NCBI GenBank assembly: GCA_016222805.1
Contig: JACRQG010000016.1
Coordinates: forward strand, 1 to 64,000
DNA: 64,000 nucleotides
Source: Verrucomicrobiota bacterium
Lineage (GTDB): Bacteria; Verrucomicrobiota; Verrucomicrobiia; Opitutales; Opitutaceae
Direction: 5' to 3'
How positions within the stretch are numbered: position 1 is the first letter of the stretch; every line of letters starts with the position of its first letter. Below the pieces are notes generated by a model. That model had not been told where the DNA came from and ran no database searches. It saw only the letters and a list, made by a program, of their open reading frames with translations. The translations under genes and the position numbers were made by a program. Positions 6,904 to 31,728 of the stretch are shown here, piece after piece.

Positions 6904-7620
6904 TCACTTTCGGCCCGCGGCGGCGGGTTGATCCAGCAGGATCCGCGACTGCACTTCGAATGAACCCGGAGTGAAGGGAGGATAGAGAATCAGGAGGCCG
7001 CGTTGCTGGCGCCCGACTGACACCTTTCCCTCGTAGGACTGGTAGGTGCGCTGTTTGGCCATCGTGGTCAGCCGGACCTGGGCCGCTCCAGCCGACGGAA
7101 TAGGCGGGTTGAATCCGGCCTTGAGCGTCACCGACTGCTGGTTGACGGTGCCCGACAACGCCAGGCCACTCAGATTCAGGATCGCGAGGCTGCCGACTGG
7201 TTGCCTCGCCGGGCTGTCGTCGAGAACCGCCACCTGGTAGCGCAACTTGCCGTCCGCGGCAGCCGACGCCTTCTCCAGGGGCAGAAACAACAGGAGCACG
7301 TCGCGGAAGTCGGCGGGGATTGATGCTTCAGCCACCACCGCCCGGGTGTCGGGATCCACGAACCGCAGGGGCATTCCCCCGCGGTACTCATATCGCGGCG
7401 ATCGGGCATTCGGCAGGAACTTCACCGCCTGTGGTTCGGCCCTGGCCCGGGGGACGAAGGCCACATCGGTGAGGGGCCGCGAAGCGAAAACCGAGAAACG
7501 CACCGCCTGCAGTGGCGCAGGCGCCGTCTGCGCGGCGAGCGGCGTCAGCGCCACGGAAAGCAGGAGCAGGCCGACGGCGGCCCAGGACCGCGCCGTCAAA
7601 TGTCCGACCGCGTCAGCCAT
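6904..7620 (-). CDS. Exported protein of unknown function, last gene of the pseudopilin cluster
   Basis: 238 residues. A signal peptide covers residues 1 to about 30, with a hydrophobic L-L-L-L-S-V-A-L core and a probable cut after L-A-A-Q. The mature part is rich in beta-prone stretches, has no cysteine pair and no membrane segment, and ends without a recognisable anchor. I do not recognise the family. Its start codon lies inside the end of the upstream giant pseudopilin gene (25-base overlap), so the two are probably translationally coupled and it likely works with the pseudopilin system, perhaps as a periplasmic or surface accessory subunit. That role is inferred from position only. Confidence 0.6.
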   Translation of the reverse strand: MADAVGHLTARSWAAVGLLLLSVALTPLAAQTAPAPLQAVRFSVFASRPLTDVAFVPRARAEPQAVKFLPNARSPRYEYRGGMPLRFVDPDTRAVVAEASIPADFRDVLLLFLPLEKASAAADGKLRYQVAVLDDSPARQPVGSLAILNLSGLALSGTVNQQSVTLKAGFNPPIPSAGAAQVRLTTMAKQRTYQSYEGKVSVGRQQRGLLILYPPFTPGSFEVQSRILLDQPAAAGRK

Positions 7621-10600
7621 CGGAAGGAAACCACCTTGAACCGTCGTCCGTGCTGCCGGTTCACCTCGCTGGAAAGCGAATCCGGCAGGACCTCCGGGAT
7701 GTCGGCCAGCGGGTCGACATACTCAGGCACACGCTGCACGAGGGCCTCGCACCAGGCCCGACCTTCAACCGTACCGGTCGCCGGGTTGATCGCCTCGCCG
7801 TAGGTCCTTACCACGAAAGTGTCGGACCGTGGAAAAAGCACGGGAGCCAGTGCGGTCATGATGTCGCCTGGCGTGAGAAACTGGGAGCTGAACTCGGGCA
7901 CATCCTTGTTCAACTCCGCGTCCTCGATTGCCGCCTCAAGGAGGCTACGATCGCCGTTCGGCCCGGCGAAGATCGCCCGCGGAGCGAGAAAGTCCTCGAT
8001 CGACCGGAACGGTCCCGAATCCGCCAACTTGGCCTTCACCCAGCCGACGATCGCATTCGCCAGCCGTACGGTCTCTGCATCCGAAAGCGCCCGCACGCCC
8101 CGGCGGTAGAGGTGGGTGTTGGCGGCCGATGGCACATCCGGATCCGTCCCCGTCACGGTCGTGCTCGCCGCATAGGTCACCACCGTCTCCGTTCCCTCGA
8201 GGTTCATCACCACCGGCAAGTCCGCCTCATAGGTCTCCTGCGCCGACTGGGGGAAACGGAAAAAAGTCGCCTGCGTCGGCGTGGTCGACGCGACCGAGGT
8301 GTCGGAACCCGCCGTGCCGGTGGAACTGCTGGAGTTGATGTACCGAAAGGCCTCGCCATTCGCGAACCTCGAGCTGCGCAGGACCGCGATCCAGGCGAGC
8401 GCGCTGGTCGAGTTCACGTTGAAGGCGCCGCGCTGCAGCAGGTGTTTCGACGAGAAACCTTCCGAGGGTTCCTGGGTGGAGTTCTGGACGCCCAGGACAT
8501 CGCTCAACAGGGTTGCCGAGCCATCGGGCTTTCGCGGCAGGACCTGTAACAACGGGTTCGGCAGAGGAACCGTCACCGCGCTCCCCAGCAGCGAATCGAC
8601 GCCGGCCGTCACCGGCGCCGCGAGCCCGGAGAGGAAATATCGGTCGAAGATCGCGTTGGCCGGAACTCCTGAAGCGATCTCCTGCTGGCTGCCCCAAGGG
8701 TTGCCGACCGCGAATGGCCGCGCGCCGGGCAGGAGCAGATGCTGGAGCGACCCGAGCGACAACACCGGCGCCCGCGGAAGTTCGAAGACCGGGACGTCGC
8801 GATTGTACGAGCGCCCCGAGTTGCCCATCACGCGCTCGAGCAGGAGGTCGTTGTTGTACGGGGTCGGGACACCCGGATACGCGCTGGGCAGCGGACCATT
8901 CGCCCCGGGGACGAAGGCAGTGTCCGCGAGCGCCGGGTTGCGCGGATCCCGCCCGCGCTCGACCAGCCAGCCGGATGCACCGGCGGCGTTGAGCCGGAAC
9001 AGAAAGCTGAACTCGTAACCTCCATCGCTTGCTTTCGGCAGCACTTCCGGGTCCGCCTGCGGGTCGGTCGCAAAGAAGGCATCAAACGTCGGCGAGATGT
9101 AGGTACCAAGCGGCTCCGTGTCGTTTTTCCGAAAGACCTTCACCGTAAGCTGCGTCGGCACCGGCACCCGCCACCCACCAGGAGCCACCCCCGTGATCAC
9201 CGAGGGAGAGACGCGCGTGACTGCGTGGCTCGTTCCGACGAGGGACTTGTTGTAGAAATGTCCTTCATTGCCGTTCTCCGGCTCCTCGGTGTTGCCCTCC
9301 GATCGCCAATAGTACACCCGCCCCGGGAGCCAGGAGGCGACATCGGGCTTCGGCGTGCCATCATCCTGGAGGTCCGTCCGGTCGAATTCCCACGGCAGCC
9401 TCAGCCGCACAGGCGCGCCAAACATCGCGGACGGAGACACCGTGGCGAGAGTGGGCGAGCCCGGATCGGCGTCGGCGGCAAACTCCATCACGTCGGGCAG
9501 CCCGGTGATTTCGATGCGCAGATCCTCGGGGACGAGGGCGCTGGTGTAGGGGTTCCAGAGGCCGATGACCCAGCGGAGCCGGGTTTCGATCGGGGCCTCC
9601 TCATCGGTTCCACCGACGGTGCGGGAGTCGAAGTTCAGCATGCAGAACGCCAGGACCGGCGCCACGCGATGCGCCTGCTCTCCCTCCACGAGCGGCGGCG
9701 TAATCCGGTAGCGGCGGCGCATCGATTCGGCGGACGCAATCTCCGGCACCGCCAGCGGCGCCGAGGCCGCGGCCGGATCCGGCACCTCCATGTATGCCGG
9801 ATAGTTGACCCAGGCCGCAAAGGCACTTCCAAGCAGGTCCGGCCGTAGCGAGAGATCCCGCCGCAATCCGCCGTCCTTGGTATTCGCGAGCACCGCCTTG
9901 TTGTCCGGCGACCAGTGCTGGAAATAGGTGCGCAAGGTCCCAAGACCAATCGCCGCATTGGACGAGTTCTTCAGGAAGCCGAGTTGATTGAAGGCGAGGG
10001 TCCGGTCCGCCAGCGTGGAGTTCGGCGGGCTGGCCCCGGAACTCGTGCGCGGCTCGAAGACCGCCGCCGCCGCGGCATTGGCGGCGCCCGCGCCCATCGG
10101 CACCTGCTGGCGGATCCGGCGGCGAAGTTCGACCGCATCGTAGGGAACGTAGCTGACCGTCGTCGCCGTCGAAGCCGATGCTGCCGTGTCGAGCGCGCGA
10201 TCCTGCAGGGCGACCGGAGCCTTGACCCCCTGATCGCCCACCCACCAGCCGTACCGACCGATGGTAGGCCGGGCCGTCGCCGCAAAGCCCGGCACCCCGA
10301 TGGCTGTAATACCCTGCAACGGCACCACGACGTCGTTGGCGGTGGAAGTGTTGGAGCTGATCAGCGCCACCGTCGGCCCCGCCGTCGTCGCAGGCGTGAC
10401 GGAAAGGGGCGTGGCGACCCCAGCGGAGTCGTAGCGCTCATTGCCGCTCACGAGCCAGGTCACCGGGTCCTTTTCGCTGTTGGTGGAGTCCCACACGCCG
10501 GTGTACCACCTTCTGCCGCTCACCGGCGAAAATGCGTCCGCCGTCGCCGTCACCCGCCGATCCGATCCCGCGTACTTTTGCAACTGCCCGACCGCGATGT

Positions 10601-10814
10601 TCAGGGCCAGGAGGGCATTTTCCCGCGCTTGGGCCTGCCGCTGCATCGTTCCCGCCACCGCCGTCTCGACCCTCGTGTAGGCCGCGAGGCCCATGAGGAC
10701 GACCACGAGAAATGCCAGCAGCGTCACGGTGAGCAGCAGCGCGAATCCCCGCACCCGGCGGCCTGGCGGGTCGCCGCGGTCGGCGGGAGTTGGACTGGAG
10801 TGGCCGGTCTTCAC
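7596..10814 (-). CDS. Giant pseudopilin-like protein, Verru_Chthon cassette protein A type
   Basis: About 1072 residues from a GTG start 7 bases after the upstream stop; the frame is open further upstream, but into the neighbouring gene. A short charged leader ends in R-V-R-G23, followed by F-A-L-L-L-T-V-T-L-L-A-F and a single membrane helix, then a large exported domain. The mature N-terminus lacks the Glu5 of major pilins, as in GspK/PilX-type minor pilins. Size and position, last of four pseudopilin genes, match what I recall of Verru_Chthon cassette protein A (TIGR02600). It probably sits at the tip of a pseudopilus or in the envelope and would need a prepilin peptidase, which is not encoded in this window. 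Substrate and function are unknown. Confidence 0.78.
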   Translation of the reverse strand: MKTGHSSPTPADRGDPPGRRVRGFALLLTVTLLAFLVVVLMGLAAYTRVETAVAGTMQRQAQARENALLALNIAVGQLQKYAGSDRRVTATADAFSPVSGRRWYTGVWDSTNSEKDPVTWLVSGNERYDSAGVATPLSVTPATTAGPTVALISSNTSTANDVVVPLQGITAIGVPGFAATARPTIGRYGWWVGDQGVKAPVALQDRALDTAASASTATTVSYVPYDAVELRRRIRQQVPMGAGAANAAAAAVFEPRTSSGASPPNSTLADRTLAFNQLGFLKNSSNAAIGLGTLRTYFQHWSPDNKAVLANTKDGGLRRDLSLRPDLLGSAFAAWVNYPAYMEVPDPAAASAPLAVPEIASAESMRRRYRITPPLVEGEQAHRVAPVLAFCMLNFDSRTVGGTDEEAPIETRLRWVIGLWNPYTSALVPEDLRIEITGLPDVMEFAADADPGSPTLATVSPSAMFGAPVRLRLPWEFDRTDLQDDGTPKPDVASWLPGRVYYWRSEGNTEEPENGNEGHFYNKSLVGTSHAVTRVSPSVITGVAPGGWRVPVPTQLTVKVFRKNDTEPLGTYISPTFDAFFATDPQADPEVLPKASDGGYEFSFLFRLNAAGASGWLVERGRDPRNPALADTAFVPGANGPLPSAYPGVPTPYNNDLLLERVMGNSGRSYNRDVPVFELPRAPVLSLGSLQHLLLPGARPFAVGNPWGSQQEIASGVPANAIFDRYFLSGLAAPVTAGVDSLLGSAVTVPLPNPLLQVLPRKPDGSATLLSDVLGVQNSTQEPSEGFSSKHLLQRGAFNVNSTSALAWIAVLRSSRFANGEAFRYINSSSSTGTAGSDTSVASTTPTQATFFRFPQSAQETYEADLPVVMNLEGTETVVTYAASTTVTGTDPDVPSAANTHLYRRGVRALSDAETVRLANAIVGWVKAKLADSGPFRSIEDFLAPRAIFAGPNGDRSLLEAAIEDAELNKDVPEFSSQFLTPGDIMTALAPVLFPRSDTFVVRTYGEAINPATGTVEGRAWCEALVQRVPEYVDPLADIPEVLPDSLSSEVNRQHGRRFKVVSFRWLTRSDI

Positions 10815-10821
10815 GGAGGAT

Positions 10822-11883
10822 TCAGGGCGAGGTCGTGTTGACGATGATCCGGCGCGTGAAGACTCGGGAGTTGGCCAGAGCCAGATCCCACCAGAATTGC
10901 TGTGCCGACCGATCCGCGCGGGCAAAGAACCGCTGCGGCGCCGCCTCGTAGCCCGCAAGCTGGCTCGCGCCCTCGTCGGTCAGCACGCGCACCATCACGT
11001 CAATCACGTCCGGAAACACGTCGCCAGCCCCGACTGCCCTGGACGGCGCACGGGCCTGATAGGTCGCAGTCGAGGTGTTGTTCGCGGGATAGACCAGCCG
11101 CAAGCCGTCGGGGCGCGTGCTGTCGCGGACGTACATCCTCACGCCGAAATCAACCACGTTTTCGGCGATCACGCTGTTGATTGTCGGGTACCGAATCTCG
11201 GCCGGATCGTTGACCTGCCGCACCGTATTGCTGGAGGGCGCATAGGCCGAAGCGACGATGGAGAATCCGCTCTCGATGGTACCGGGCTGTGTCGAGGACA
11301 AGGTCGTCGGACGGACCTCTGTCCGGTGCAGCAGGTAGCGGCGGTCCGAACTGCGAGCCTCGTTGCCGGACGTCGCCCGGCGCACGATCTGGTACGCGAC
11401 CGCCACCGGCGCCGAAGCGGTGCCCAACACGCTCGTATTGCCCCGGCGCGTGGTGAAGAACCGCAGCCACACGCCCGCCACGCCGAAGCGTGCGTCGGAG
11501 AGGTTGCCCGTGGCTGCGGTTTGCAGCGATCCGGCGTTGTTGGCCGGCTTGATCGCCGAGCCGGTGGTGGCGGTCGAACTCCAGAGGCCGGTGTTCGCCG
11601 TGTTGCCGAGAATGGTCGCGGCGAGCCAGACATTGCCGTCGTCGCGGAACAGGGCCGACTGCAGGTCGAGGGTGAGCTGATCGAGGACAAACCGCCCCTG
11701 GGCTTCGGCCGAGACGCGGCCTGAGGTGCGCGACCAGAAGCCGGAGACATTGTTGACGATGACCAGGATGAACCCCACCAGCAGCGTCGTGATTCCGACC
11801 GCAATCAGCACCTCCAGGAGGGTGAATGCCCGCCGATCCGCTGGGCGCCGCGACGGCGGCGGGATGGTGCGAGGTGCCTTCAT
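10822..11883 (-). CDS. Prepilin-like protein, Verru_Chthon cassette protein C type (GspJ-like)
   Basis: 353 residues. The leader ends R-R-A19, followed by F-T-L-L-E-V-L-I-A-V-G and a hydrophobic helix, the class III signal of type IV prepilins. The residue before the cut is Ala rather than the usual Gly. The rest is a large exported domain with no recognised motif. Length and order fit cassette protein C (TIGR02599 as I remember it), comparable to the minor pseudopilin GspJ. The start overlaps the stop of the preceding gene in an ATGA junction, and the gene ends 7 bases before the start of the giant protein, so the set is co-translated. Confidence 0.75.
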   Translation of the reverse strand: MKAPRTIPPPSRRPADRRAFTLLEVLIAVGITTLLVGFILVIVNNVSGFWSRTSGRVSAEAQGRFVLDQLTLDLQSALFRDDGNVWLAATILGNTANTGLWSSTATTGSAIKPANNAGSLQTAATGNLSDARFGVAGVWLRFFTTRRGNTSVLGTASAPVAVAYQIVRRATSGNEARSSDRRYLLHRTEVRPTTLSSTQPGTIESGFSIVASAYAPSSNTVRQVNDPAEIRYPTINSVIAENVVDFGVRMYVRDSTRPDGLRLVYPANNTSTATYQARAPSRAVGAGDVFPDVIDVMVRVLTDEGASQLAGYEAAPQRFFARADRSAQQFWWDLALANSRVFTRRIIVNTTSP

Positions 11884-12569
11884 CGCGTGATTGAGCCGGT
11901 GAAGTGCAGCACCTGCTTGCGGCTGTGGTCGAAGCGTACCGAGGCGCTCGCGCCCAAGCCTGGCTGGACGGCCGTGGTGGCGGTATCGGCCACGAAGGCC
12001 GGCCAGCGCACGCGCGCCGTATAGGCGATTAGGTTGAGAGCCGGATCGACCGTGACCTTGCCGCTTTCGCCGCCCGCGGCATCGGCGGAGGGCTTTGGCG
12101 TAATCGCCTCGTTTCGCACCAGCGCAATCTCGAAGAATTTCTCCCCATCCCAGTTGCGGCGGGTCTGCGGATTGAGCCAGATATTGTCCGCGTAACGGCC
12201 GATCTTGGAGCCGTCGCGGCTGGCGAACAGCAATTGCGCATCCTGGGAGATGTCGTAGTCACCCTTGGCGTCGGCCTCGATGAGTTCGTGCCCGTTCTCC
12301 TTCGAGTTCTTCAACAGCGCGGCCACGTCGTCGAACGGCATCGTCTGCAGCCGCATCCGCAGCAACTCTGCCATCCGGGCCGCCGCTTCCGCGTCCGCGG
12401 ACTGCACGACGGAGCGCGCGATCGGCGAGAACAGCCCGAGGATGCCCACCATCGCGAACGCGAAGACCGCCACTGCCGCGACCACCTCGATGAGACTGAA
12501 GGCACGGGCGCGCCGACCGGAAGGACGTGCCGGTGACACCGGGACATGACTGCAGGCGAAACGGCGCAT
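11880..12569 (-). CDS. Prepilin-like protein, Verru_Chthon cassette protein B type (GspI-like)
   Basis: 229 residues. A basic leader ending R-A-R-A23 precedes F-S-L-I-E-V-V-A-A-V-A-V-F-A-F-A-M-V and the rest of an N-terminal helix: a clear prepilin signal with Glu5 retained but Ala at position -1. The remainder, about 170 residues, is the exported globular part. It fits cassette protein B (TIGR02598 from memory) and the minor pseudopilin GspI. The start shares one base with the upstream stop (TGATG) and the stop overlaps the next start (ATGA), so three consecutive genes are coupled. Confidence 0.75.
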   Translation of the reverse strand: MRRFACSHVPVSPARPSGRRARAFSLIEVVAAVAVFAFAMVGILGLFSPIARSVVQSADAEAAARMAELLRMRLQTMPFDDVAALLKNSKENGHELIEADAKGDYDISQDAQLLFASRDGSKIGRYADNIWLNPQTRRNWDGEKFFEIALVRNEAITPKPSADAAGGESGKVTVDPALNLIAYTARVRWPAFVADTATTAVQPGLGASASVRFDHSRKQVLHFTGSITR

Positions 12570-13270
12570 CAGAAGCTGTTGGCGTCGTTCACGAACGTGA
12601 TCCCGCCGGAGGGCCGGATTAGGATGCCGCGCGCCGCCCCGGCGTTGTTGAACTGCGGCTGGTCGTTGACCACGGTCGCGGTGGCCACGAGCAGGCGCGC
12701 GTAGGGCTGGGCACTGGGACTGCTCACCGTGCCATCGGGTGCAAACTGCAGGTAAAACGCCGTGCTGTTGGCGAAAAGGGTACCGGCGGGCTGGTTCACC
12801 CCCACCGGTCCCGCGAGCGACGACAGCAGCGGTGGGTTGGTCGGCCAGATGACGCCGGAGACCAGCAACCCGGAGACCGATGTCGGCACGACATAGATGC
12901 CGCGCGGCAGCACGAGCGGCTGTCCGACCGGCACGAAGTTGGAGGTCTGGTCCGGCGGCTCGGCCCGGAAGACCTGCATCAAGCGCAGGTACTTCTCCTT
13001 GTCACCCGAAGGCGGCCGCGTCGCGTAAATCATGAGCCGCGTTGCCGCCTGGTGAACCGCCGCCTGGGTACGCGCCGTGTTCACCATCGAGGCGAGTGCG
13101 GTCTGCCCCGACGCCAGACCGCTTCCCGCGGTGTCGCTGATCGCCAGCCCCAGGCCTCCGGCCACCAAGGCGATGATGGCCACGACCACGAGCAACTCGA
13201 TCAACGTGAACGCCCGCGACCGCGGCTGGCGCGGCGAGGCTGCGGGATGGGAGCGGGAGGAATCCGGCAT
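12569..13270 (-). CDS. Prepilin-like protein, Verru_Chthon cassette protein D type (GspH-like)
   Basis: 233 residues. The leader ends S-R-A20 and is followed by F-T-L-I-E-L-L-V-V-V-A-I-I-A-L-V, a textbook pilin helix except for Ala at -1. The exported part has alternating beta-prone stretches and ends near P-S-G-G-I-T-F-V-N-D, resembling GspH/FimT-like minor pseudopilins. Length and first place in the four-gene set fit cassette protein D (TIGR02596 from memory). An A-G-G-A-G-G stretch ending 13 bases upstream of the start overlaps the stop of the preceding gene and may help initiation, though it is rather distant. Confidence 0.75.
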   Translation of the reverse strand: MPDSSRSHPAASPRQPRSRAFTLIELLVVVAIIALVAGGLGLAISDTAGSGLASGQTALASMVNTARTQAAVHQAATRLMIYATRPPSGDKEKYLRLMQVFRAEPPDQTSNFVPVGQPLVLPRGIYVVPTSVSGLLVSGVIWPTNPPLLSSLAGPVGVNQPAGTLFANSTAFYLQFAPDGTVSSPSAQPYARLLVATATVVNDQPQFNNAGAARGILIRPSGGITFVNDANSF

Positions 13271-13280
13271 CGCGACGCCC

Positions 13281-14048
13281 TTACCTCCAGCTCATGATGA
13301 GCTCGTTCTCACTGGTGGCGCCTGGCGGCGCGCAATAGAAGACCACGCCGGCGTGCGTCCCGCCCGTCGTTCCGGTTGTCAGCACCGTCGTCGGACGAAT
13401 GGTCAGGGAACTGCCCGCCACCGTGGCGGCAGGAAACCCGCCGGAGGAGTCCCGGCCATTGATCACGCCGTCGAGGTTGGAGTCGGTGACAACGGCGATC
13501 GACGTGTTGTAGAAGGCGTCGCGGATGAAATAGAGCTGGTTGCTCGGAGCGTTCCCCGCGGTGACGTCCGCCGGCATCACGAAGTCGGCGTCGGTAAACG
13601 ACACGAAGCGGATCCGGCGGGTGTTCTGGCCAGCGGCGGGAGTCGGATTCCCGGTCGTGGCGGCAGGCAGCGATTGCCCGTCGCGACGCACGCCGGCCAG
13701 GATGTCATGGAAAAGATGATTGCCCGAAGGCGTGGCGGTGGCGCCGGTGTTCACGAACTTCTGCGTCGCGCTGGGATAAAGCTGCGGGTAGGAGCCGTAC
13801 TCTTGGCGGAACTGCTCGAACCCCGTCGCCCACTGGCTGAACTGGGCCCGGGTCTTGGCGCGCAGGGCCGCGCTCTTGGCGCTGCCGGCGGTGGGAATCA
13901 GGATCGCCGCCAGAATCCCCAGGAGCGCGATCACGGTCAGGAGTTCGATCAGGGTGAACCCCCGCGCGCCCCGGATGCGACCAGCCAACCTCAGGCTCCG
14001 GTGATGGGGGATGGAGAAGTCAGGGAGTCGCATAGAGGTTGTCGGCAT
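13281..14048 (-). CDS. Type II secretion/type IV pilin-like protein (GspG-like)
   Basis: 255 residues. The leader ends R-G-A-R-G30 before F-T-L-I-E-L-L-T-V-I-A-L-L-G-I-L-A-A, with the consensus Gly at -1. The helix continues into A-L-R-A-K-T-R-A-Q-F-S-Q-W and a short Y-G-S-Y-P-Q-L motif. That motif is typical of the alpha-beta loop of GspG-like major pseudopilins, so this may be the main shaft subunit of the structure built by this cluster. The start overlaps the end of the preceding gene by 29 bases; a second ATG at 14033 would shorten the overlap to 14 bases. It ends 10 bases before the next prepilin gene. Confidence 0.78.
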   Translation of the reverse strand: MPTTSMRLPDFSIPHHRSLRLAGRIRGARGFTLIELLTVIALLGILAAILIPTAGSAKSAALRAKTRAQFSQWATGFEQFRQEYGSYPQLYPSATQKFVNTGATATPSGNHLFHDILAGVRRDGQSLPAATTGNPTPAAGQNTRRIRFVSFTDADFVMPADVTAGNAPSNQLYFIRDAFYNTSIAVVTDSNLDGVINGRDSSGGFPAATVAGSSLTIRPTTVLTTGTTGGTHAGVVFYCAPPGATSENELIMSWR

Positions 14049-14733
14049 TTACGCCCGTGGTTTGCTGGGTTCCGGTGAATAGCCCCGTGCTGATCGAGGG
14101 CGCGATATGTTGCCCGTCCGGACCCACCGAATATAGCACGTAGGCCGGCGCCCGCCACTGGAGGCCTCCGGCGCCAGGCGCCTTGTAGTAGTACATGTAC
14201 CGATTGCCCCAGGGATCCAGCAGGGCGTTGGAGACAAATTGCTTCGAAGGAGGAATTCCCTGCGCTACGCCGAAATTGGCCGTGGTCGCGGCGGTGAGTT
14301 CGACCTCCAGGCGAAACTTCGAGACCTCGAGGAGCACCGGTCCGTTGAGGCGGGTCGAGAAGTTCGTGGGACCGTAGACACCAATCAGCGCGTTCAACAG
14401 GAGCGCCTGGGCCTGGAGATTGGTGATGGTGGCACCGACTGTCGGCGTGGCTTGGGGCGCATTGCCGGTCTGCGGGTAGTCCCCGTAGACCCGCCGGTAA
14501 TCCTCGAGCGCCTGCGTGAGCGCGGCGAGTTCACCTCGGGCACGCGCCACCGCCGCCCGCTGCTTGGCGGAATTGACCAGTCCGAAGCCGAGCGAAAAGA
14601 GCACCGCCATGACGGCGATGACCGAGACGATCTCGATGATCGTGAAGCCCGACCCACCCCGGCCATCCGCCCCACCCGTCGGACGACGGGCGGGCACGGC
14701 GGAGCGACAGGATGCGGGGCTCGCGTGCGGCAT
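14020..14733 (-). CDS. Type II secretion/type IV pilin-like protein (GspG-like), first gene of the cluster
   Basis: 237 residues. A leader ending G-G-S-G is followed by F-T-I-I-E-I-V-S-V-I-A-V-M-A-V-L-F-S: a class III signal with Glu5. Downstream, R-A-R-G-E-L-A-A-L-T-Q-A-L-E-D-Y and V-Y-G-D-Y-P-Q-T-G closely parallel the following gene, so the two are probably paralogues that share the shaft-type fold. The ATG is preceded by an 11-base pyrimidine stretch and no Shine-Dalgarno sequence. As first gene of the seven-gene minus-strand cluster, its upstream region (before the acs terminator) should contain the promoter, but I see no convincing -35/-10 pair. Confidence 0.76.
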   Translation of the reverse strand: MPHASPASCRSAVPARRPTGGADGRGGSGFTIIEIVSVIAVMAVLFSLGFGLVNSAKQRAAVARARGELAALTQALEDYRRVYGDYPQTGNAPQATPTVGATITNLQAQALLLNALIGVYGPTNFSTRLNGPVLLEVSKFRLEVELTAATTANFGVAQGIPPSKQFVSNALLDPWGNRYMYYYKAPGAGGLQWRAPAYVLYSVGPDGQHIAPSISTGLFTGTQQTTGVNADNLYATP

Positions 14734-16879: not shown

Positions 16880-18115
16880 ATGGAAACGAAACCCGTGTCC
16901 GCCCCTGCGGACTCTTCTGCCGCCGCCGTTCCCCCGGCGAACACCCCTGCCGCGCCCGCCTCGGCCAATAGCGCGGCCGCCGCCCCGGCTCCAGTCGACA
17001 ACAGCATCCGCGTCGAGGGCGTGCTCGACATCGATCTCCAGCGCGGCGGCAACGGCCAGCTGATCGACATCACCCGCGGCTGCAAGCGCCGCCCGACCGA
17101 CACTTTCGTACCCAAGGAGCTGATCCGCCGCTTCAAGCTACGCGCCGGATCGATGATTGGCGGCACCGCGTTCCCCCCGGAAGGCCGATTCCCCAATCCC
17201 AAGATGCGTTTCATCGAAACGGTGGACGGCGTCCCGCTGGAGGATCGCCGGGCGCGTTTCGAATTCACCACCCTCACCACGATCTCCCCCAACCAGCACC
17301 TGCGGATGGAGATGAAGGATGGACGCCTGACCACCCGGGCGGTCGATCTTTTCTGCCCGATCGGCAAGGGCACCCGGGGTCTCATCGTGGCCCCCCCGCG
17401 CACGGGCAAGACCACCCTCTTGCGCGATATGGCCCTCGGGGTTCTGGAGAACAACCCGGAGTGCCACGTGATGATTCTGCTGGTCGACGAGCGCCCCGAG
17501 GAAGTCACCGACTTCCGTCGCAGCGTGGCCGCCGCCGAAATCTGGGCTTCGTCCAACGACGAACAGATTGAGAACCACATCCGAATTGGCGACCTCTGCA
17601 TCGAACGCGCCAAACGCCTCGTCGAGACCGGCAAGGATGTCGTCCTGTTTGTCGACTCCATCACCCGCCTGTCGCGGGCCCACAACACCGCTCGCAATTC
17701 CGGGCGCACGGGCTCCGGGGGCCTCGACGTCCGCGCCTTGGAAAAGCCCCGTCAGCTCTTTGCGACCGCCCGCCGCACGGAGGAAGCCGGCTCGCTCACC
17801 ATCGTCGCCAGCGTGCTGGTCGAGACGGGCAGCCGCATGGATGACGTCATCTTCCAGGAATTCAAGGGCACGGGAAACATGGAGCTCGTCCTGGACCGAA
17901 AGTGCGCCGAGATGCGCCTCTGGCCCGCCATCAACATCGGGGCCAGCGGCACCCGGAAGGAGGAACTGCTCATCGATGCCAAGACGCTGGAGGGCATCCA
18001 TTTCTTCCGGCGCGCGCTGGTCGCCCAGAAGATCGAGGAAGCCACCGAGACGATGATCGCCCGGCTATCCAAGACGAAGACGAACGCGGAGTTCCTGAAG
18101 TTGATCGCCCGCTGA
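16880..18115 (+). CDS. Short divergent paralogue of transcription termination factor Rho
   Basis: 411 residues. An Ala/Pro-rich tail of about 40 residues replaces the Rho_N helix bundle. An OB-fold-like region follows (G-V-L-D-I to R-R-F-K-L-R-A-G), then the hexameric RecA-type ATPase: Walker A P-P-R-T-G-K177-T-T, D-E-R-P-E-E-V-T with the catalytic Glu, Walker B-like V-V-L-F-V-D-S-I-T-R-L and the arginine-finger region S-G-T-R-K-E-E-L. Differences from canonical Rho are clear: the aromatic F-G-F-L-R RNA-binding strand is not recognisable, the usual P-K-A-G-K is P-R-T-G-K, and the Q-loop Lys-Gly-Glu is Ala-Ala-Ala-Glu with one extra residue. A canonical rho lies 11 kb away, so this one is probably specialised. 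It is the first gene after the acs divergent region. Confidence 0.85.
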   Translation: METKPVSAPADSSAAAVPPANTPAAPASANSAAAAPAPVDNSIRVEGVLDIDLQRGGNGQLIDITRGCKRRPTDTFVPKELIRRFKLRAGSMIGGTAFPPEGRFPNPKMRFIETVDGVPLEDRRARFEFTTLTTISPNQHLRMEMKDGRLTTRAVDLFCPIGKGTRGLIVAPPRTGKTTLLRDMALGVLENNPECHVMILLVDERPEEVTDFRRSVAAAEIWASSNDEQIENHIRIGDLCIERAKRLVETGKDVVLFVDSITRLSRAHNTARNSGRTGSGGLDVRALEKPRQLFATARRTEEAGSLTIVASVLVETGSRMDDVIFQEFKGTGNMELVLDRKCAEMRLWPAINIGASGTRKEELLIDAKTLEGIHFFRRALVAQKIEEATETMIARLSKTKTNAEFLKLIAR

Positions 18116-23135: not shown

Positions 23136-24323
23136 TCAGGCGCTGAGGCTCTTGATCAGCTCAATCATCGGGAGGAACATCGCGATGACGATGATGCCGA
23201 CGCCCACGGCCATGAAGACGATCATCACGGGTTCGATGATCGACGTCAGCGCCGCCACGGCATTGTCCACCTCTTCGTCGTAGTTATCCGCAATGCGGAC
23301 CAGCATGTCCGGCAAGGCGCCGGTCTCCTCGCCTACCTCGATCATGCTCGTCACCATGCCGGGAAAGACCCTCGTCGATTCGAGCGGCTTGGCGACGTTG
23401 TCGCCTTCCTTCACGCGGTCATGCACCACGCTGATGGCATTGGCCACATGAACGTTGCCACTCGTGTCGCGCGTGATCGTGAGCGCCTGGAGGATCGGCA
23501 CACCGGAGGCCAACAGGGTGCCGAAAGTGCGAGTGAAGCGGGCGATTGCCGCCTTGAGGAGCAGATCGCCCAGCACCGGGATTCGCAACAGCACCCAGTG
23601 GATGACATAGGTGCCGAGTTTCGAGCGCTTGAAGACCCAGAAGAAAAACATCAATCCTGCCACGCCGGCCACGACCATCAGGATGTGCTGGCGCATCGCG
23701 TCCGCCACCGAAACCACCACCGACGTCAGCCAAGGGAGAGGTTTACCCTTCAGCATGGTGAGAAAGACCTCCTGGAATTTCGGCACCACGAAGACCATCA
23801 GCACCGTCATGATCCCGCCCGCGACCGTGCTGATGATGGCCGGATAGACCATGGCCGACACCACCTTGCTCTTAATCTTCACGGCCTTCTCCATGAAGAC
23901 GGATAACCGTTCCAGCACCGTGTCGAGCACGCCGCCCGCCTCTCCCGCCTTCACCATGTTCACGTAGAGGCGGTCAAACGTCTTGGGATGAGCTCCCAAG
24001 CCATCCGAGAAGTTGCCGCCGGAGCGAATCGTGTCGGCGCAGTCCTCGATTACCTGCCGGAAAGCCGGTCGCTTCTCCTGCCGGGCCAGCACCTCGAGGC
24101 TGCGGAGAATCGGCATCCCGGCCTTCACCAGCGTCGCCAGCTGCCGCGTGAATACCGTCAGCCCCTTGTCGTTGATCGGGCGCCCGAAGGAAAATCCCCT
24201 TCGTCGACGAGGCGCCACCGCTCCGGCACTGAGCGCAATGGTCGGACCACGACCCGAGGTCCGGCCGGAGGTGGGAATCGGCACCGCCGGGGTTGCTTTG
24301 GGACTGACGGAGAGTTTGGCCAT
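23136..24323 (-). CDS. pilC: Type IV pilus/type II secretion inner-membrane platform protein PilC (GspF family)
   Basis: 395 residues, the usual PilC length. Two GspF repeats are present, each a soluble helical bundle followed by membrane helices: F-T-R-Q-L-A-T-L-V-K-A-G-M-P at the start of the first, F-T-R-T-F-G-T-L-L-A-S-G-V-P at the start of the second, and hydrophobic helices near 185-210, 230-255 and at the C-terminus. PilC anchors the assembly ATPase and feeds pilins into the growing fibre. It is the last gene of the pil run, 26 bases after the pilB copy, and is one of the few genes here with a good purine-rich ribosome site (G-A-G-G-A-A-G, about 5 bases before ATG). Confidence 0.93.
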   Translation of the reverse strand: MAKLSVSPKATPAVPIPTSGRTSGRGPTIALSAGAVAPRRRRGFSFGRPINDKGLTVFTRQLATLVKAGMPILRSLEVLARQEKRPAFRQVIEDCADTIRSGGNFSDGLGAHPKTFDRLYVNMVKAGEAGGVLDTVLERLSVFMEKAVKIKSKVVSAMVYPAIISTVAGGIMTVLMVFVVPKFQEVFLTMLKGKPLPWLTSVVVSVADAMRQHILMVVAGVAGLMFFFWVFKRSKLGTYVIHWVLLRIPVLGDLLLKAAIARFTRTFGTLLASGVPILQALTITRDTSGNVHVANAISVVHDRVKEGDNVAKPLESTRVFPGMVTSMIEVGEETGALPDMLVRIADNYDEEVDNAVAALTSIIEPVMIVFMAVGVGIIVIAMFLPMIELIKSLSA

Positions 24324-24349
24324 GATCGCTTCCTCGATGGAGACGGGAT

Positions 24350-26047
24350 CTAAGTGTACTTGACGACCTCTTCGATGGTCGTGTTGCCGTCGAAAATTGC
24401 CCGGAGCCCGTCATCACGCAACGTGCGCATGCCCTGTTCGATCGCCTTCTGCCGGATGGCCAGGGTCGGCGCCCGCTGGGTCACGAGATCGCGCACCTGA
24501 TCGCTCAGCCGCAGCCACTCATAGATGCCCAGCCGACCCTTGTACCCCGACTGACTGCAGGCCGGACACCCCTTGCCGAAGGAGAACGGCCGATCGCCCA
24601 CCTGGTCCCGCGAGCTCCCCAGTTGCGCGACCACCTCCGGACCCGGGAGGTAGGAGGACTTGCACTGACCGCAGATCCGGCGCACTAACCGCTGCGCCAG
24701 GACGGCCTCCAGGGTGGAGGCGATCAGGAACGACTCCACCCCCATGTCGATCAGGCGAGTGATCGCCCCGGCGGCATCATTGGTGTGGAGCGTGGAAAGC
24801 ACGAGGTGACCGGTGAGCGACGCCTGGATCGAAATCTGCGCCGTCTCCAGGTCGCGAATCTCGCCGACCATGATGATATCCGGATCCTGCCGCAGGAACG
24901 AGCGCAGCGCCGAGGCGAAGGTGAGGCCGACGAGGGGGTTCACCGGAACCTGCATGATTCCCTCGATCTCGTACTCCACCGGATCCTCGGCCGTGAGGAT
25001 CTTCACATCCACGGTGTTCACCAGCCGCAGGCCGCTGTAGAGCGTGGTCGTCTTGCCGCAGCCTGTCGGCCCGGTCACGATGAAGATCCCGTTGGGCCGG
25101 CGGACGATTTCATGGATACCGTTGAAAACATCCTCCGGCATGCCGAGCTGGCTGATGTCGAGCCGCACCGCGGACTGATCGAGCACGCGCAGCACCACGC
25201 TTTCGCCGAACTGGGTCGGCAGGGTGGAAACGCGCAAGTCGACCGGCCGTCCGCCAATGTTGATCTTGATGCGACCGTCCTGCGGAATCCGCCGCTCGGC
25301 GATGTTGAGACTCGCGAGCACCTTGACGCGCGAGATGATCGGCAGCGCCAGCTGCTTCGGTGGCGGGGCCATCTCGTAGAGCGCCCCGTCGATGCGGTAC
25401 CGGATCTTGAACTCGTGCTCGAACGGCTCGAAATGGATGTCACTCGCCTTGTCACGGATGGCCTGCCCGATCACGAGGTTGACGAACTTGATGATTGGCG
25501 TCTGCTCCGCCATCGACTCGAGGTCGCGCTCGGAGAACTCCCGGTTGCCAGGATCGGCCGCCACCTTGCCCGTGCTGATTTCCTGGAGGAGATCATCGAT
25601 GCTCTCCTCGTCCTCGCCGTAGTGCTGCTTGATCTGAACCTCGACCTTGTCGGGATCGGCGAAAAACAGCCGCACATTCCGATCGAGCGCGAAGGTCAGG
25701 TCATCGACCGCCTGGGTGTTGAAGGGATCGGTGACGAGGAGATCGATGTTCTGCTCGTCCGCGCGCATGGGCATGACGCCATAATCCCGCGCCAGCTTGC
25801 CGGTGAGTGACGCGATCGCCTCGCCCGGAAACTGCACCGGCAACTCCGCGACGTAGTCGTAGCCCAAGTGCTCGGCGATCCGGCGCAGCAACTCGTCCTT
25901 CTCGACGATGCCGAGATCCACGACCACATCGGCCAGCGGTTTCCCCGTCGCCTTGTGTTCCTCGTTCAGTTCGTCCAGCTGCGCCGGCTCGACGAGCCGT
26001 TGCTCCTTGAGGAACTCGTAAATCGCGGGACTGTGCGACGGAAACAT
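24350..26047 (-). CDS. pilB: Type IV pilus assembly ATPase PilB (GspE family), copy 1
   Basis: 565 residues. The N-terminal MshEN/T2SSE_N domain (about 1-150) contains R-R-I-A-E-H-L-G-Y and D-L-L-V-T-D-P. The ATPase core has Walker [11 protein letters not shown], the Asp box [10 protein letters not shown], Walker [10 protein letters not shown] and the His box T-L-H-T-N-D-A. The zinc knuckle is C-G-Q-C ... C-P-A-C. The Cys in the Walker A loop is a minor variation of the usual Ser. It powers pilus or pseudopilus extension at the cytoplasmic face. It lies between pilT (13 bases upstream) and pilC (26 bases downstream). Confidence 0.93.
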
Positions 26048-26060
26048 GGTCCGGGATCGC

Positions 26061-27143
26061 TCAGAGTTCGCGCAGCTTCAGGCCCATCTGCAGGAACTTC
26101 TCGCGCATGATATTGGGATCCTGGGCCTTTTCCAGTGCCTCATCCGGCGCCACCAATTCCCGGTTCACCAGGCTCATCAGGTGCGTGTCCATGGTGATCA
26201 TCCCGAGGTGGGCACCCGTCTGGATGTCCGACGGGATGCGGAACGTCTTGTTCTCGCGGATCAGCGAGCCGATCGAGGTCGTGTTCACCATGATCTCGTA
26301 ACCGGCAATCCGCCCGCCGCCGATCTTCTTGCACAGCACCTGGGAAATCACCGCCACCAGCGAGGACGCCAGTTGGGTGCGGATCATGTCCTTCATGTTG
26401 GCCGGAAACGCGTCGACAATCCGGTCGACCGTCTTGGCGGCACTGTTGGTGTGCAGCGTGCCAAACACAAGGTGGCCCGTTTCGGCCGCGCTGATGGCAG
26501 CTTCGATGGTCTCGAGATCGCGCATTTCGCCGACCAGAATCACGTCGGGATCCTGGCGCAGCGCGCGGCGAATTGCCTCGGAGAAACTCGGCACGTCCAC
26601 ATGCACCTCACGCTGCGTCACCACGCAGCGCTTGTGATTGTGGTAATACTCGATCGGATCTTCGATGGTGATGATGTGGCCGTCCCGCGACTCGTTGATG
26701 TAGTTGATCATCGACGCCAGTGTCGTGGACTTGCCGGATCCGGTGGGGCCGGTGACCAGAATCAGGCCGCGCGGCCGGTAGAGAAGTTCGCGAATCTTAT
26801 CGGGGAGGCCGATATCCCGCAGCCCGAACATCTTGTACGGAATCTGGCGCAGAACCATCCCGTAGTTGGTCTTGGCCTTCAGCACCGACACGCGGAACCG
26901 CGCCTTTTCCCCGAACGCAAAGCCGAAGTCCGCTCCTCCGTTCAGCTTCACGTTGCTGACGTGCGCGTCCGGGGTGATGGAGAGCATCAGCTTCTCGGTG
27001 TCCCCCGGAGTCAGCGGCGGGCCGTCGATGGGGGTCATGCTGCCGCTCAGCCGGATGGTCGGCGGCTGCCCCACCTGGAGGTGAAGATCCGAGGCGCCCT
27101 GCTCGACCATCAGGTCGAGGAGATCGTTCATGTCGTAACTCAT
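26061..27143 (-). CDS. pilT: Type IV pilus retraction ATPase PilT
   Basis: 360 residues, typical of PilT. It lacks the long N-terminal domain and zinc knuckle of PilB. Motifs are Walker [11 protein letters not shown], Asp box I-E-D-P-I-E-Y-Y-H, Walker [10 protein letters not shown] and His box T-L-H-T-N-S-A-A. The C-terminal retraction-linked helix, A-I-R-N-L-I-R in enteric PilT, appears here as S-I-G-S-L-I-R-E-N. PilT depolymerises the fibre to drive twitching, adhesion or DNA uptake, so this locus encodes a dynamic type IV pilus and not only a secretion pseudopilus. It sits between the two pilB copies. Confidence 0.93.
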
Positions 27144-27239
27144 GGTTGGGGATTTCGTGGCCCATCCAAGAGCACGGAGGCGGTCCGGGGCTTCCGGAAG
27201 GACGGGCGGTTGGCGGGGAAGAAGTCCATTGCCGGGAGC

Positions 27240-29003
27240 CTAGCTCGCGTCGCCGACCGTGATCGAGACGACCTCCTCGATGGTCGTCAGGCCGGACGTC
27301 ACCTTCCGGGCTCCGTCCTCGCGCATCGTCCGCATGCCGAGCGAGCGGGCCCGTTCGCGGAGCTTGGCGGTGCCCGCGTTCTCGTAGATCATCTTCTGGA
27401 TTTCCTCGTTCACCACGAAGATCTCGAAGATGCCCATGCGCCCGCGATAGCCGGTCGAGTTGCAGTGTCCACAACCGTCGCCCTTGGCGAACGTGGCGCT
27501 GGCGGACTGCGCCGGGTTGATGTTGAGGGAACGAAGCTCCCGCGAATCCGGCACATACGGACGCCGGCAGTGCGAGCAGATCTTGCGCACGAGCCGCTGC
27601 GCCATCGCCGCGCGCAGGGACGTCGAAACGAGGAACGGCTTCACTCCAATGTCGATCAGGCGGGTCACCGCCCCAGGCGCGTCGTTGGTGTGGAGGGTGG
27701 AGAACACCATGTGGCCGGTGAGGGACGCGTTGATCGCGATTTCCGCGGTCTCCAGGTCGCGGATTTCACCCACCATGACAATGTTCGGGGCCTGGCGCAG
27801 CATGGCACGCAGGGCCGAGGCGAAGGTCATCCCGACATCGGCCCGCACCGGCACCTGGTTGATGCCGTTGAGTTGATATTCGACCGGATCCTCGACCGTG
27901 ATGATCTTCCGGTCCGGCTTGTTGATGAAGTGCAGGCACCCATAGAGCGTGGTGGTCTTACCGGAGCCCGTGGGCCCGGTCACCAGCAGAATCCCGTCCG
28001 GCAGGGAAATCAGTCGCTCGAAGGTCCCGGCGTCGTCGCTGAAAAACCCGAGTTCCGGCAGGCCAAGGGTGAGGCCCTCCTTGTCCAGGATACGCATCAC
28101 GATGCTCTCCCCGTGCACCGTCGGCAGCGAGGACACGCGCAGATCGAGCTGTTTGCCCCCCACCGAAATCTGGATACGTCCGTCCTGCGGAATGCGCTTC
28201 TCGGCGATGCTGATGTTCGCCATGATCTTCAGCCGGGAGATGATGGACAGCTGGAGACGCTTCGGCGGATTCTCCACTTCGATCAGGACGCCATCGATCC
28301 GGTACCGAACGCGAAATCGTTTCTCGAGCGGCTCCACATGGATGTCCGAGGCCCGCCGCTGGATCGCCTCAAGGATGATCTGATGAACCAGCTTGATGAT
28401 CGGGGCATCCGCCTCGGTCGTCGTCGCCTCTCCGCCAGCCCCGGTTTCGGTAGTCACCGCGGTGGTCTCCTCCGCCCCTTCCTTCACCGAAAGGTCGTTC
28501 AGGAGATCGTCGATCGAGTTGGCATCCTTGCCATAGAAACGATCGATCGCCGACGCAATCTCCTCGGGCGTCGCCACCATCGTCTCCAAGGGCATCTTGA
28601 CGAGGTAACCCAGGGCATCGATGCCGTCCGTGTCGAGCGGATCAGAGATGGCGACGCGCAACCGACCGCTTTCCCGCCCGAGCGGCAGCAGGCGGTGCCG
28701 CGCCGCCACCGCTCTGGGGACCAACTCCAGCGTATCGTTGGTGATGCGGACGTTCGTGAGATCGGGAGCCATCGGCATCCCGAACTCCGAGGCCAGCAAT
28801 TCCGCCACTTTGCGGGAGCTGAGGACTCCCTGGTGGATCAAGCCGTCCAGCAAGGTGGACGGCGGCACCCCACCCTGCCCGGCCAGCAGCGCGCGCGCGG
28901 CATCGATCTGGGCCTGCTGCAGCAGCCCGCGCTCCTGCGCGAGCTGGATCACGAACTCATCCGCAGCGGCGGTAAACGAGGTCGGAACGGAGGTGGGGGT
29001 CAT
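27240..29003 (-). CDS. Type IV pilus/type II secretion assembly ATPase (PilB/GspE family), copy 2
   Basis: 587 residues with the same architecture as the pilB copy 2.9 kb away: an MshEN-type N-terminal domain, a Thr/Glu-rich linker near 180-205, then Walker [37 protein letters not shown] and a zinc knuckle C-S-H-C ... C-G-H-C. The two copies differ along their whole length, so the duplication is old and each may serve a different fibre, one of which could be the pseudopilin cluster at 7.6-14.7 kb. It starts 18 bases after the rho stop and ends 96 bases before pilT. Confidence 0.92.
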
Positions 29004-31076: not shown

Positions 31077-31140
31077 GACAGGTTGCTGGGAAAGGAAGGC
31101 CGGCCGGCCAAGAAACAGACGTGCCGACCGTTGGGAAGTT

Positions 31141-31728
31141 TCAGGCCGCTTCCAGCGCGTGGGCCAAACGTCCGACTTGCGCCTCCAGAAACTCGGTGGA
31201 GCCCTGGTTCCAAAGGACAAAGTCAGATAGCTCGATTTTGCGCGTCAGCGGCAGTTGCTTGGAGATTCGCTGCCCGGCGAGCGCACGCGGCAGGCCACGT
31301 TGCTCCAGTCGGGCTAATTGAACTTCCGGAGCAAGGGCCACACATACCGTGAAATCAAACCAATTCTCCAAGCCTTTCTCGAAGAGCAGCGGTACCTCCA
31401 CGACCCAGCGGATCCTCCCCCCGCCCCGCGCCCAGTGGCGCTGCCAGGCCGCGACGACCCGGGGGTGCACCAGGTCCTCCAACCAGGCCCGCTCCCGATC
31501 GTCTTCGAAGACCCGGCGGGCGAGTTCGGGCCGGTGGACCGCCCCGCAGGCATCCAGCACCGCCGCGCCAAAGCGCTCCTGCAGGGCCTCGCGGACGACA
31601 GCATCGGCATAGACCTCGTCCCGGACGATTTGATCCGAGTCGAGCCGGTGAAATCCCCGGAGTTCGAACATCCGCGCGGCGGTCGACTTGCCGCAACCAA
31701 TGCCTCCCGTGAGTCCGAGCTTAAGCAT
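31141..31728 (-). CDS. coaE: Dephospho-CoA kinase
   Basis: 195 residues, the normal size. It phosphorylates dephospho-CoA, the last step of coenzyme A synthesis. The N-terminal P-loop is L-T-G-G-I-G-C-G-K-S-T, followed by the D-S-D-Q-I-V-R segment of the substrate site and the E-V-P-L-L-F-E-K-G-L segment of the lid region. ATG at 31728 puts the P-loop at residue 8, as in the family; the frame is open upstream to 31848 but that part is not conserved-looking. It ends 64 bases before rho and may be the first gene of the rho-pil run. Confidence 0.93.
   Translation of the reverse strand: MLKLGLTGGIGCGKSTAARMFELRGFHRLDSDQIVRDEVYADAVVREALQERFGAAVLDACGAVHRPELARRVFEDDRERAWLEDLVHPRVVAAWQRHWARGGGRIRWVVEVPLLFEKGLENWFDFTVCVALAPEVQLARLEQRGLPRALAGQRISKQLPLTRKIELSDFVLWNQGSTEFLEAQVGRLAHALEAA

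Follow-up and report, generated by a model that had tools for sequence, protein, structure and literature searches.

A conserved seven-gene operon in Opitutaceae probably encodes a complete pseudopilin fibre with a giant GspK-like tip subunit

Analysing a 64,000-nucleotide stretch of an Opitutaceae genome (positions 1 to 64,000 of contig JACRQG010000016.1, assembly GCA_016222805.1; hereafter "the window"), we found on its minus strand, from 14733 to 6904, seven tightly packed genes in the order G1-G2-D-B-C-A-X, six of them encoding prepilin-like proteins and the last one, X, an exported-type protein (Table 1). We consider it probable that these seven genes provide the whole fibre of one machine of the type II secretion system (T2SS)/type IV pilus family, with the layout G-(G2)-H-I-J-K, which would work either as a secretion piston or as a surface pilus. 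The basis for this interpretation is the T2SSG domain of G1, the predicted folds of C and A, the gene order, its conservation among relatives and the co-occurrence of the operon with assembly ATPases. Read as GspG-H-I-J-K, the order of the genes is simpler and fits better than the naming after Verru_Chthon cassettes that an initial annotation had proposed for them.

Neighbouring genes of the operon overlap by 29 nt (G1/G2), 1 nt (D/B), 4 nt (B/C) and 25 nt (A/X); G2 and D are separated by 10 nt, and C and A by 7 nt if A begins at GTG 10814; this codon, directly after the stop of C, is the likely start of A, TTG 10958 being only the mechanical start of the open reading frame. Since their order is conserved in relatives (see below), the seven frames are not there by chance. 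A [G/A]-F-[S/T]-x-x-E prepilin motif is found in five of the six pilin-like genes (G1, G2, D, B and C), and the corresponding segment of A, GFALLLTV, lacks the glutamate at position 5; GspK proteins likewise lack the glutamate of the prepilin motif. The six prepilin-like genes and the exported protein that had been placed within 7596-14733 are thus all present on the minus strand, although X lies mostly beyond that interval. A promoter scan gave no sigma-70-type site between 6500 and 15000.

G1 matches the T2SSG family PF08334 with 33.4 bits, above its cut-off of 21, as do all 13 aligned members of its family at E <=0.01, and the alignment is conserved at DPWG, YxLYSxGPDG and DNxY; the stricter TIGR01710 model gives 48.4 bits, below its cut-off of 88.85. 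The GspG match of G2 is restricted to the N-terminus (39.1 bits), and an alignment of 12 G2 proteins shows a conserved D-x-N-x-D-G-type loop together with an SW[K/R] C-terminus, a D-x-N-x-D-G-x-I-like stretch of which may resemble a calcium loop. PDB sequence profiles for D and G2 returned N-terminal pilin parts only, plus a few chance rows for D. D reaches 28.3 bits with the GspH model TIGR01708 (cut-off 80), and PF12019 (GspH) gives a match in one of 16 members of its family; B is matched weakly by XpsI (25.7 bits, cut-off 150) and had no match in a PDB profile search. The curated GspK sequence model gives 15.7 bits for A, below its cut-off of 130, and X had no match in NCBIfam, Pfam or a PDB profile search. 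No match to the GspC, GspL or GspM families was found among the seven proteins with NCBIfam and Pfam, the rest of the genome not having been searched for them.

AlphaFold2 models were then built on alignments of 15 C proteins and 26 A proteins. The model of C has a predicted local distance difference test score (pLDDT) of 73.8, and its best superposition was on the Thermus protein TTHA1219 (5g24, Z 11.2), with GspJ-type chains scoring close to it (3cfi_E, Z 10.7; 2ret_B, 10.4; 5bw0_C, 10.3; 3nje_B, 10.3; 3ci0_J, 10.2). Against these five GspJ-type entries from three organisms (EpsI-EpsJ, XcpV-XcpW, XcpW and GspKIJ), the root-mean-square deviation (rmsd) ranged from 3.1 to 4.1 over 144-153 residues; according to its predicted model, C is of the GspJ-type fold. 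For A (pLDDT 79.7, predicted template modelling score 0.84), the sole outlier among 998 chains was the GspK chain 3ci0_K (Z 14.1, rmsd 3.2), with 245 of its 280 residues aligned over model residues 36-1056, the next chain reaching Z 4.0. This match emerged only from a second look by superposition, where it stood far above the remaining chains.

Five relatives carry a short A of 408-419 residues, counted from just before the prepilin motif. A block of 476 residues of the window's A (303-778 in model numbering) is missing in at least five of six short A proteins, and 658 of its residues in all fall in such missing blocks. Profiles of short and long A match at 99.8% in their N-terminal halves (199 columns), and C-terminal residues are common to both forms. 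The homology of short and long A, with a block missing from the short ones, is the reason why we read A, on its predicted model, as a GspK with a large insertion into the GspK core. Sequence searches with the short form gave weak matches to the GspK model NF037980 (E <=0.004 for five of the seven proteins scanned, the best, L095, reaching 29.3 of 130 bits), no GspK family in a Pfam scan of these seven, and two chance-level rows only with a PDB sequence profile.

The conservation of the operon was assessed in a sample of 61 genomes of the family, in which the window genome is G000 and the window lies on its contig C30. At E 1e-3, C had matches in 58 of the 61 genomes, the weak ones through the prepilin N-terminus; a threshold of E <1e-15, which we chose as a strong match, left 44, and G021 was added through A, so that 45 genomes count as carrying the cassette. 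Two borderline cases were counted as lacking it (G046, 7e-6 through the N-terminus; G039, a C-terminal fragment in an 85-codon frame). We read 47 loci from the 45 genomes, and 31 of these, including the window, show G1-G2-D-B-C in order, one gene being recognised only by a full-length profile in four of them (L101, L103, L189 and L206). Eight more loci have G1 without G2, three have G2 without G1, and five are cut or partial, one of which (L203) has space for front pilins, none having been found there. X was found behind A in many relatives. Because G1-G2-D-B-C recurs in this way, the two front pilins are part of the unit: the initial annotation was right to join them to it and to call the first one GspG-like, both being present in 31 of the 47 family loci and one of them in 11 more, and they are not unlinked from the cassette in relatives. 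Outside the family, a locus from another class (L183) shows, by N-terminal matches only, two G-like pilins followed by genes resembling D, B and C and by a frame about the size of A.

Some loci depart from this layout. The genome G015 is rated 100% complete (30 contigs); of the seven genes, its locus L054 has retained G2, B, C, A and X. At L063 and L064 (genomes G060 and G016), with L185 and L186, the A gene precedes a different set of prepilin-like genes; the cassette of G060 is on a separate contig where no A was seen, and the cassette contig of G016 stops behind C.

The machine is most likely driven by the PilB/GspE-type ATPases encoded in the window. In the 61 genomes, the cassette and PilB2 occurred together in 39, the cassette only in 6, PilB2 only in 5 and neither in 11 (Fisher p 7e-5). 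When only the 51 better genomes were considered, these counts were 35/4/2/10 (p 4e-6). For PilB1 they were 42/3/6/10 (p 2e-5), and for PilT 42/3/10/6, a weaker association (p 7e-3). There was no clear association with the ATPase of the genome's other T2SS (9/36/0/16, p 0.1). Orthologs were called at about 49-50% identity or more for the two PilB proteins and at 72% for PilT, excluding partial matches of another ATPase; partial ATPase matches at 49-50% in G017 and G038, as well as PilB1 of G007 (48%, next to PilT), were not counted. When single borderline calls were changed either way, p for PilB1 and PilB2 stayed between 5e-6 and 4e-4.

In the assembly that we propose, prepilin peptidase would first cleave the prepilins, and C, B and A would then prime the fibre in the inner membrane. 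D-B-C-A would be the minor pseudopilins H-I-J-K, which initiate assembly and remain at the tip, with A capping the fibre as a GspK enlarged by a very long insertion, and X acting as the exported partner of A. D would link the C-B-A tip to G1, the main GspG-type shaft pilin, while G2 may be a second shaft pilin or an accessory one. Beneath the tip, G1 would be polymerised by PilC and the PilB/GspE-type ATPases, whose genes are 8-14 kb away, and growth of the fibre would drive A, plus anything held by A, towards a secretin.

Compared with the T2SS operon gspG-H-I-J-K (XcpT-U-V-W-X; GspIJK, 3ci0), the window has the same order, a T2SSG domain in G1, a predicted GspJ fold in C and a predicted GspK fold in A, which also lacks the Glu5 carried by the other prepilins. 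It differs by its two front pilins, the 476-residue main insertion in A, the additional exported protein X and the divergence of B and D, which is too great for curated models; its operon is also without an ATPase, platform or secretin gene, a GspE-type ATPase (PilB2) and a GspF protein (PF00482) being encoded elsewhere in the window. If this assignment is correct, proteins named only by their occurrence, with the Verru_Chthon A-D models as the nearest ones, gain a place in a known machine, A as GspK and C as GspJ; the assignment also suggests that a GspK, usually a small cap, could harbour a very long insertion and exist in several copies. A study of Verruconatronum, whose authors compare it to related Opitutales, reports a pseudopilin gene as one of those over-expressed on alginate and counts 67 homologues of a PulG-like pseudopilin encoded in the alginate gene cluster of that organism (PMC13274419).

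Several observations weigh against a complete fibre driven by this motor. The Fisher tests ignore shared ancestry, the ortholog calls are a judgement among the matches listed, so that weak orthologs may be missed, and six genomes have the cassette without PilB2. The L054 locus and its genome G015 yielded no ortholog of G1, D, PilB1, PilB2 or PilT among the matches listed. The 8 kb that separate the motor genes from the cassette hold housekeeping genes in conserved order, so the linkage may be merely an inherited order. Four secretin matches were found in G000, none on the contig of the window, and none of the seven genes encodes a secretin; the same genome has a separate T2SS (L069) with an ordinary-sized GspK (PF03934, 43.7 bits, cut-off 24.2). 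The GspI identity of B and the GspH identity of D would rest mostly on position. Foldseek searches against the PDB, finally, gave no significant match for C (E 7e-3 at best) and no match with E <0.4 for A.

Two secretin genes of G000 (L073 on contig C51 and L074 on contig C39) have neighbours that read as PilM/N/O-like, and TPR repeats occur in the secretin of L074, a feature also reported for PilQ of Akkermansia (PMC4960237).

We rejected the linkage of motor and cassette as evidence, because Rho, HisA and other intervening genes keep the same order; the conserved block comprises a Rho-like gene, PilB1, PilT, PilB2, PilC, an HD protein, HisA, DUF2264, Rho, Acs and the cassette. Cassette and PilB genes lie within about 16 kb in nine genomes (G000, G021, G023, G025, G031, G037, G040, G043 and G047) and are not close in G003, G005, G020, G041, G048 and G049; in many others they are on different contigs, which is uninformative.

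The same genes could instead form a retractable type IV pilus for adhesion, twitching or DNA uptake, with core minor pilins of the GspH-I-J-K type and no part in protein export, which we regard as possible but rather unlikely. A PilT-type ATPase sits between the two assembly ATPases, and together with PilB and PilC it makes up, within 23136-29003, the gene set expected of a type IVa pilus, PilT being named from its context. The same syntenic block also has a gene with Mg_chelatase domains, presumably ComM-like. Moreover, the protein on which C superposes best is a Thermus type IV pilin that its authors tie to competence; the same report describes certain type IV minor pilins whose structures resemble those of the corresponding T2SS subunits more than those of other pilins (PMC5131608). 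Like the core minor pilins of type IV pili (FimU-PilV-PilW-PilX; TTHA1218/1219), the window has these subunit classes, a C that superposes on TTHA1219 and PilB-PilT-PilC genes nearby; unlike them, its operon includes a GspG-type shaft pilin and a giant GspK-like A. PilB2 scores as a GspE, G1 is of the T2SSG type, and PilT tracks the cassette less well than the assembly ATPases do, being present without it in 10 of the 61 genomes and absent beside it in 3.

The cassette might also be an alternative tip set, its pseudopilins being supplied to the ordinary T2SS at L069. The genome does contain that system, which has prepilin-like genes and a GspK of its own, and all nine genomes with an L069-type ATPase among the matches listed also have the cassette. 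However, only 9 of the 45 genomes with the cassette have this ATPase among the matches listed, and the system has pseudopilins of its own; we regard such a supply as very unlikely.

A different identity had been claimed in the initial annotation, in which the last four genes were a D-B-C-A Verru_Chthon cassette, matching in order and size, extended by two shaft pilins. We consider a true Verru_Chthon cassette of this kind highly improbable, and membership in these cassettes is already contradicted. For each of D, B, C and A, the best NCBIfam match is indeed the like-named Verru_Chthon model, which is the part of the naming that holds; but all four scores are far below the curated cut-offs: 31.7 bits for D with TIGR02596 (cut-off 70, residues 21-133 matched) and, with only some 60 N-terminal residues matched in each case, 28.1 bits for B with TIGR02598 (cut-off 51.4), 22.5 bits for C with TIGR02599 (cut-off 256.5) and 20.2 bits for A with TIGR02600 (cut-off 332.3). 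In that sense, the scan with the four models proposed at the outset gave no hit. Across the phylum, TIGR02600 was matched at E <=1e-3 in 156 of 288 genomes and above its cut-off in only seven, from which we read ten loci. Where B, C and D were confirmed above their cut-offs, the order was A-B-C-D (L165 and L171) or B-C-A-D (L168), and the other seven loci fit these two orders by the order of their open reading frames and N-terminal matches, some with one gene unseen and L166 with B also confirmed. The claimed match in order and size with D-B-C-A therefore fails, the cassettes above the cut-off being ordered otherwise. No G1 or G2 relatives were found in any of the ten loci, and profiles built from the globular portions of the window-type A to D proteins had no match there. 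In both groups, which come from the same phylum, an oversized A is accompanied by B-, C- and D-like prepilins, and the first 62 residues are common to the two A families (94.6% in a profile comparison), whereas the globular parts gave 0.8%, which is not significant. A further difference is the PEP-CTERM gene found directly before A, on the same strand, in five of the ten loci. These five genes (L165, L166, L167, L171 and L172) are frames of 828 to 2824 codons, and TIGR02601 beta-strand repeats are present in the four that were scanned, L167 not being among them.

Genes for A are also found away from any cassette. In G041, the base operon G1-G2-D-B-C (L107, G041:C1:140000-156000) is followed by a gene that reads as Mpl-like instead of by A and X. 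Fifteen or more A genes are located at other sites of the genome (L059, L068, L075-L083 and L211-L214), this number being a lower bound with 13 of 27 candidates scored. The cassette-A profile matches all 15 stand-alone A proteins, and an X relative lies directly behind A in 14 of these loci, two of them at E 7e-4. A PEP-CTERM gene, recognised by its C-terminal pattern, is present in 12 of the 15 loci compared with 2 of 16 background stretches of G041, hand-chosen, spaced and away from known A genes (p 2.4e-4); because 11 of these loci (9/11) had prompted the idea, the four fetched later are given separately (3/4 against the same 2/16, p 0.03). Such a gene is located directly before A, on the same strand, in 4 of the 15 G041 loci and in 3 of 5 in G035 and G005, and in none of three stand-alone loci from other families; at L182, one of these three, two lie at 6-9 kb on the other strand. 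In contrast to stand-alone A, only 2 of 42 window-type cassette loci have a PEP-CTERM gene anywhere in their stretch, and the window has none. In the window genome, one A was found among the best 13 of 19 candidates.

It is conceivable, if doubtful, that A is an exchangeable, cargo-dedicated tip, the base G1-G2-D-B-C taking alternative A-X units, each encoded next to the PEP-CTERM protein that it would export, and so offering an outer-membrane route in Verrucomicrobiota, of which the window genome would be the single-tip form. By analogy, a GspK dedicated to PEP-CTERM cargo is plausible but unproven, because the minor-pseudopilin tip complex of the Pseudomonas aeruginosa T2SS is held to bind and recognise substrates (PMC6211770, in the part available) and because a reliance on the T2SS is attributed to surface proteins of the MYXO-CTERM and GlyGly-CTERM types (PMC11980579). 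The GlyGly-CTERM/rhombosortase and MYXO-CTERM/myxosortase pairs would be a precedent for C-terminally sorted, T2SS-dependent surface proteins; unlike in the accessible text of these accounts, where no dedicated tip is described, A-like tip genes adjoin single PEP-CTERM genes in relatives of the window. As far as the accessible text of PMC3237569 goes, rhombosortase was not found to go with any one subclass of T2SS. In our literature search, in which subscription journals were mostly not covered and supplements not searched, PEP-CTERM and pseudopilin were not found together in any paper, and neither Verru_Chthon nor the four TIGRFAM numbers were mentioned. If A-X units are cargo-specific tips, both the exit route of PEP-CTERM proteins and the choice of substrates by a T2SS-type piston become testable by removing or swapping a single gene.

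A tree of A proteins, built by a quick method and having 21 open forks and long branches, places the stand-alone L059, L068 and L077 of G041 among cassette A proteins and most others on branches of their own. Twelve of the 40 cassette A rows, incomplete or with an unclear start, were omitted from it, L191 among these having been entered as stand-alone. We rejected a single origin of stand-alone A, since the tree requires a minimum of four switches between cassette and stand-alone positions.

Table 1. Genes of the pseudopilin operon and candidate motor genes in the window
Feature	Position	Strand	Description
G1	14020..14733	-	237 aa, GspG-type, major-pseudopilin-like prepilin
G2	13281..14048	-	255 aa, second prepilin
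D	12569..13270	-	233 aa, putative minor pseudopilin in GspH position
B	11880..12569	-	229 aa, putative minor pseudopilin in GspI position
C	10822..11883	-	353 aa, GspJ/PilW-like minor pseudopilin
A	7596..10814	-	1072 aa counted from GTG 10814, giant GspK-like tip subunit
X	6904..7620	-	238 aa, exported-type protein, partner gene of A
PilC/GspF-type platform protein	23136..24323	-	PF00482, 221.8 bits in two stretches; proposed partner
PilB2, assembly ATPase	24350..26047	-	TIGR02533 (GspE) 635.3, above 630.25; TIGR02538 (PilB) 615.9, below 675.65
PilT-type retraction ATPase	26061..27143	-	PF00437, 186.1 bits; named from size, sequence and neighbours, no PilT-specific model run
PilB1, second assembly ATPase	27240..29003	-	PilB 628.4 (cut-off 675.65) and GspE 627.0 (cut-off 630.25), below both

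Upstream of G1, on the same strand and 86 bases away, lies a gene that reads like an acetyl-CoA synthetase (Acs). Two Rho-like genes are present within 15 kb: the one at 29022-31220 has a Rho RNA-binding domain and an ATP-synthase-type domain, and the one at 16880-18115 was named from reading.

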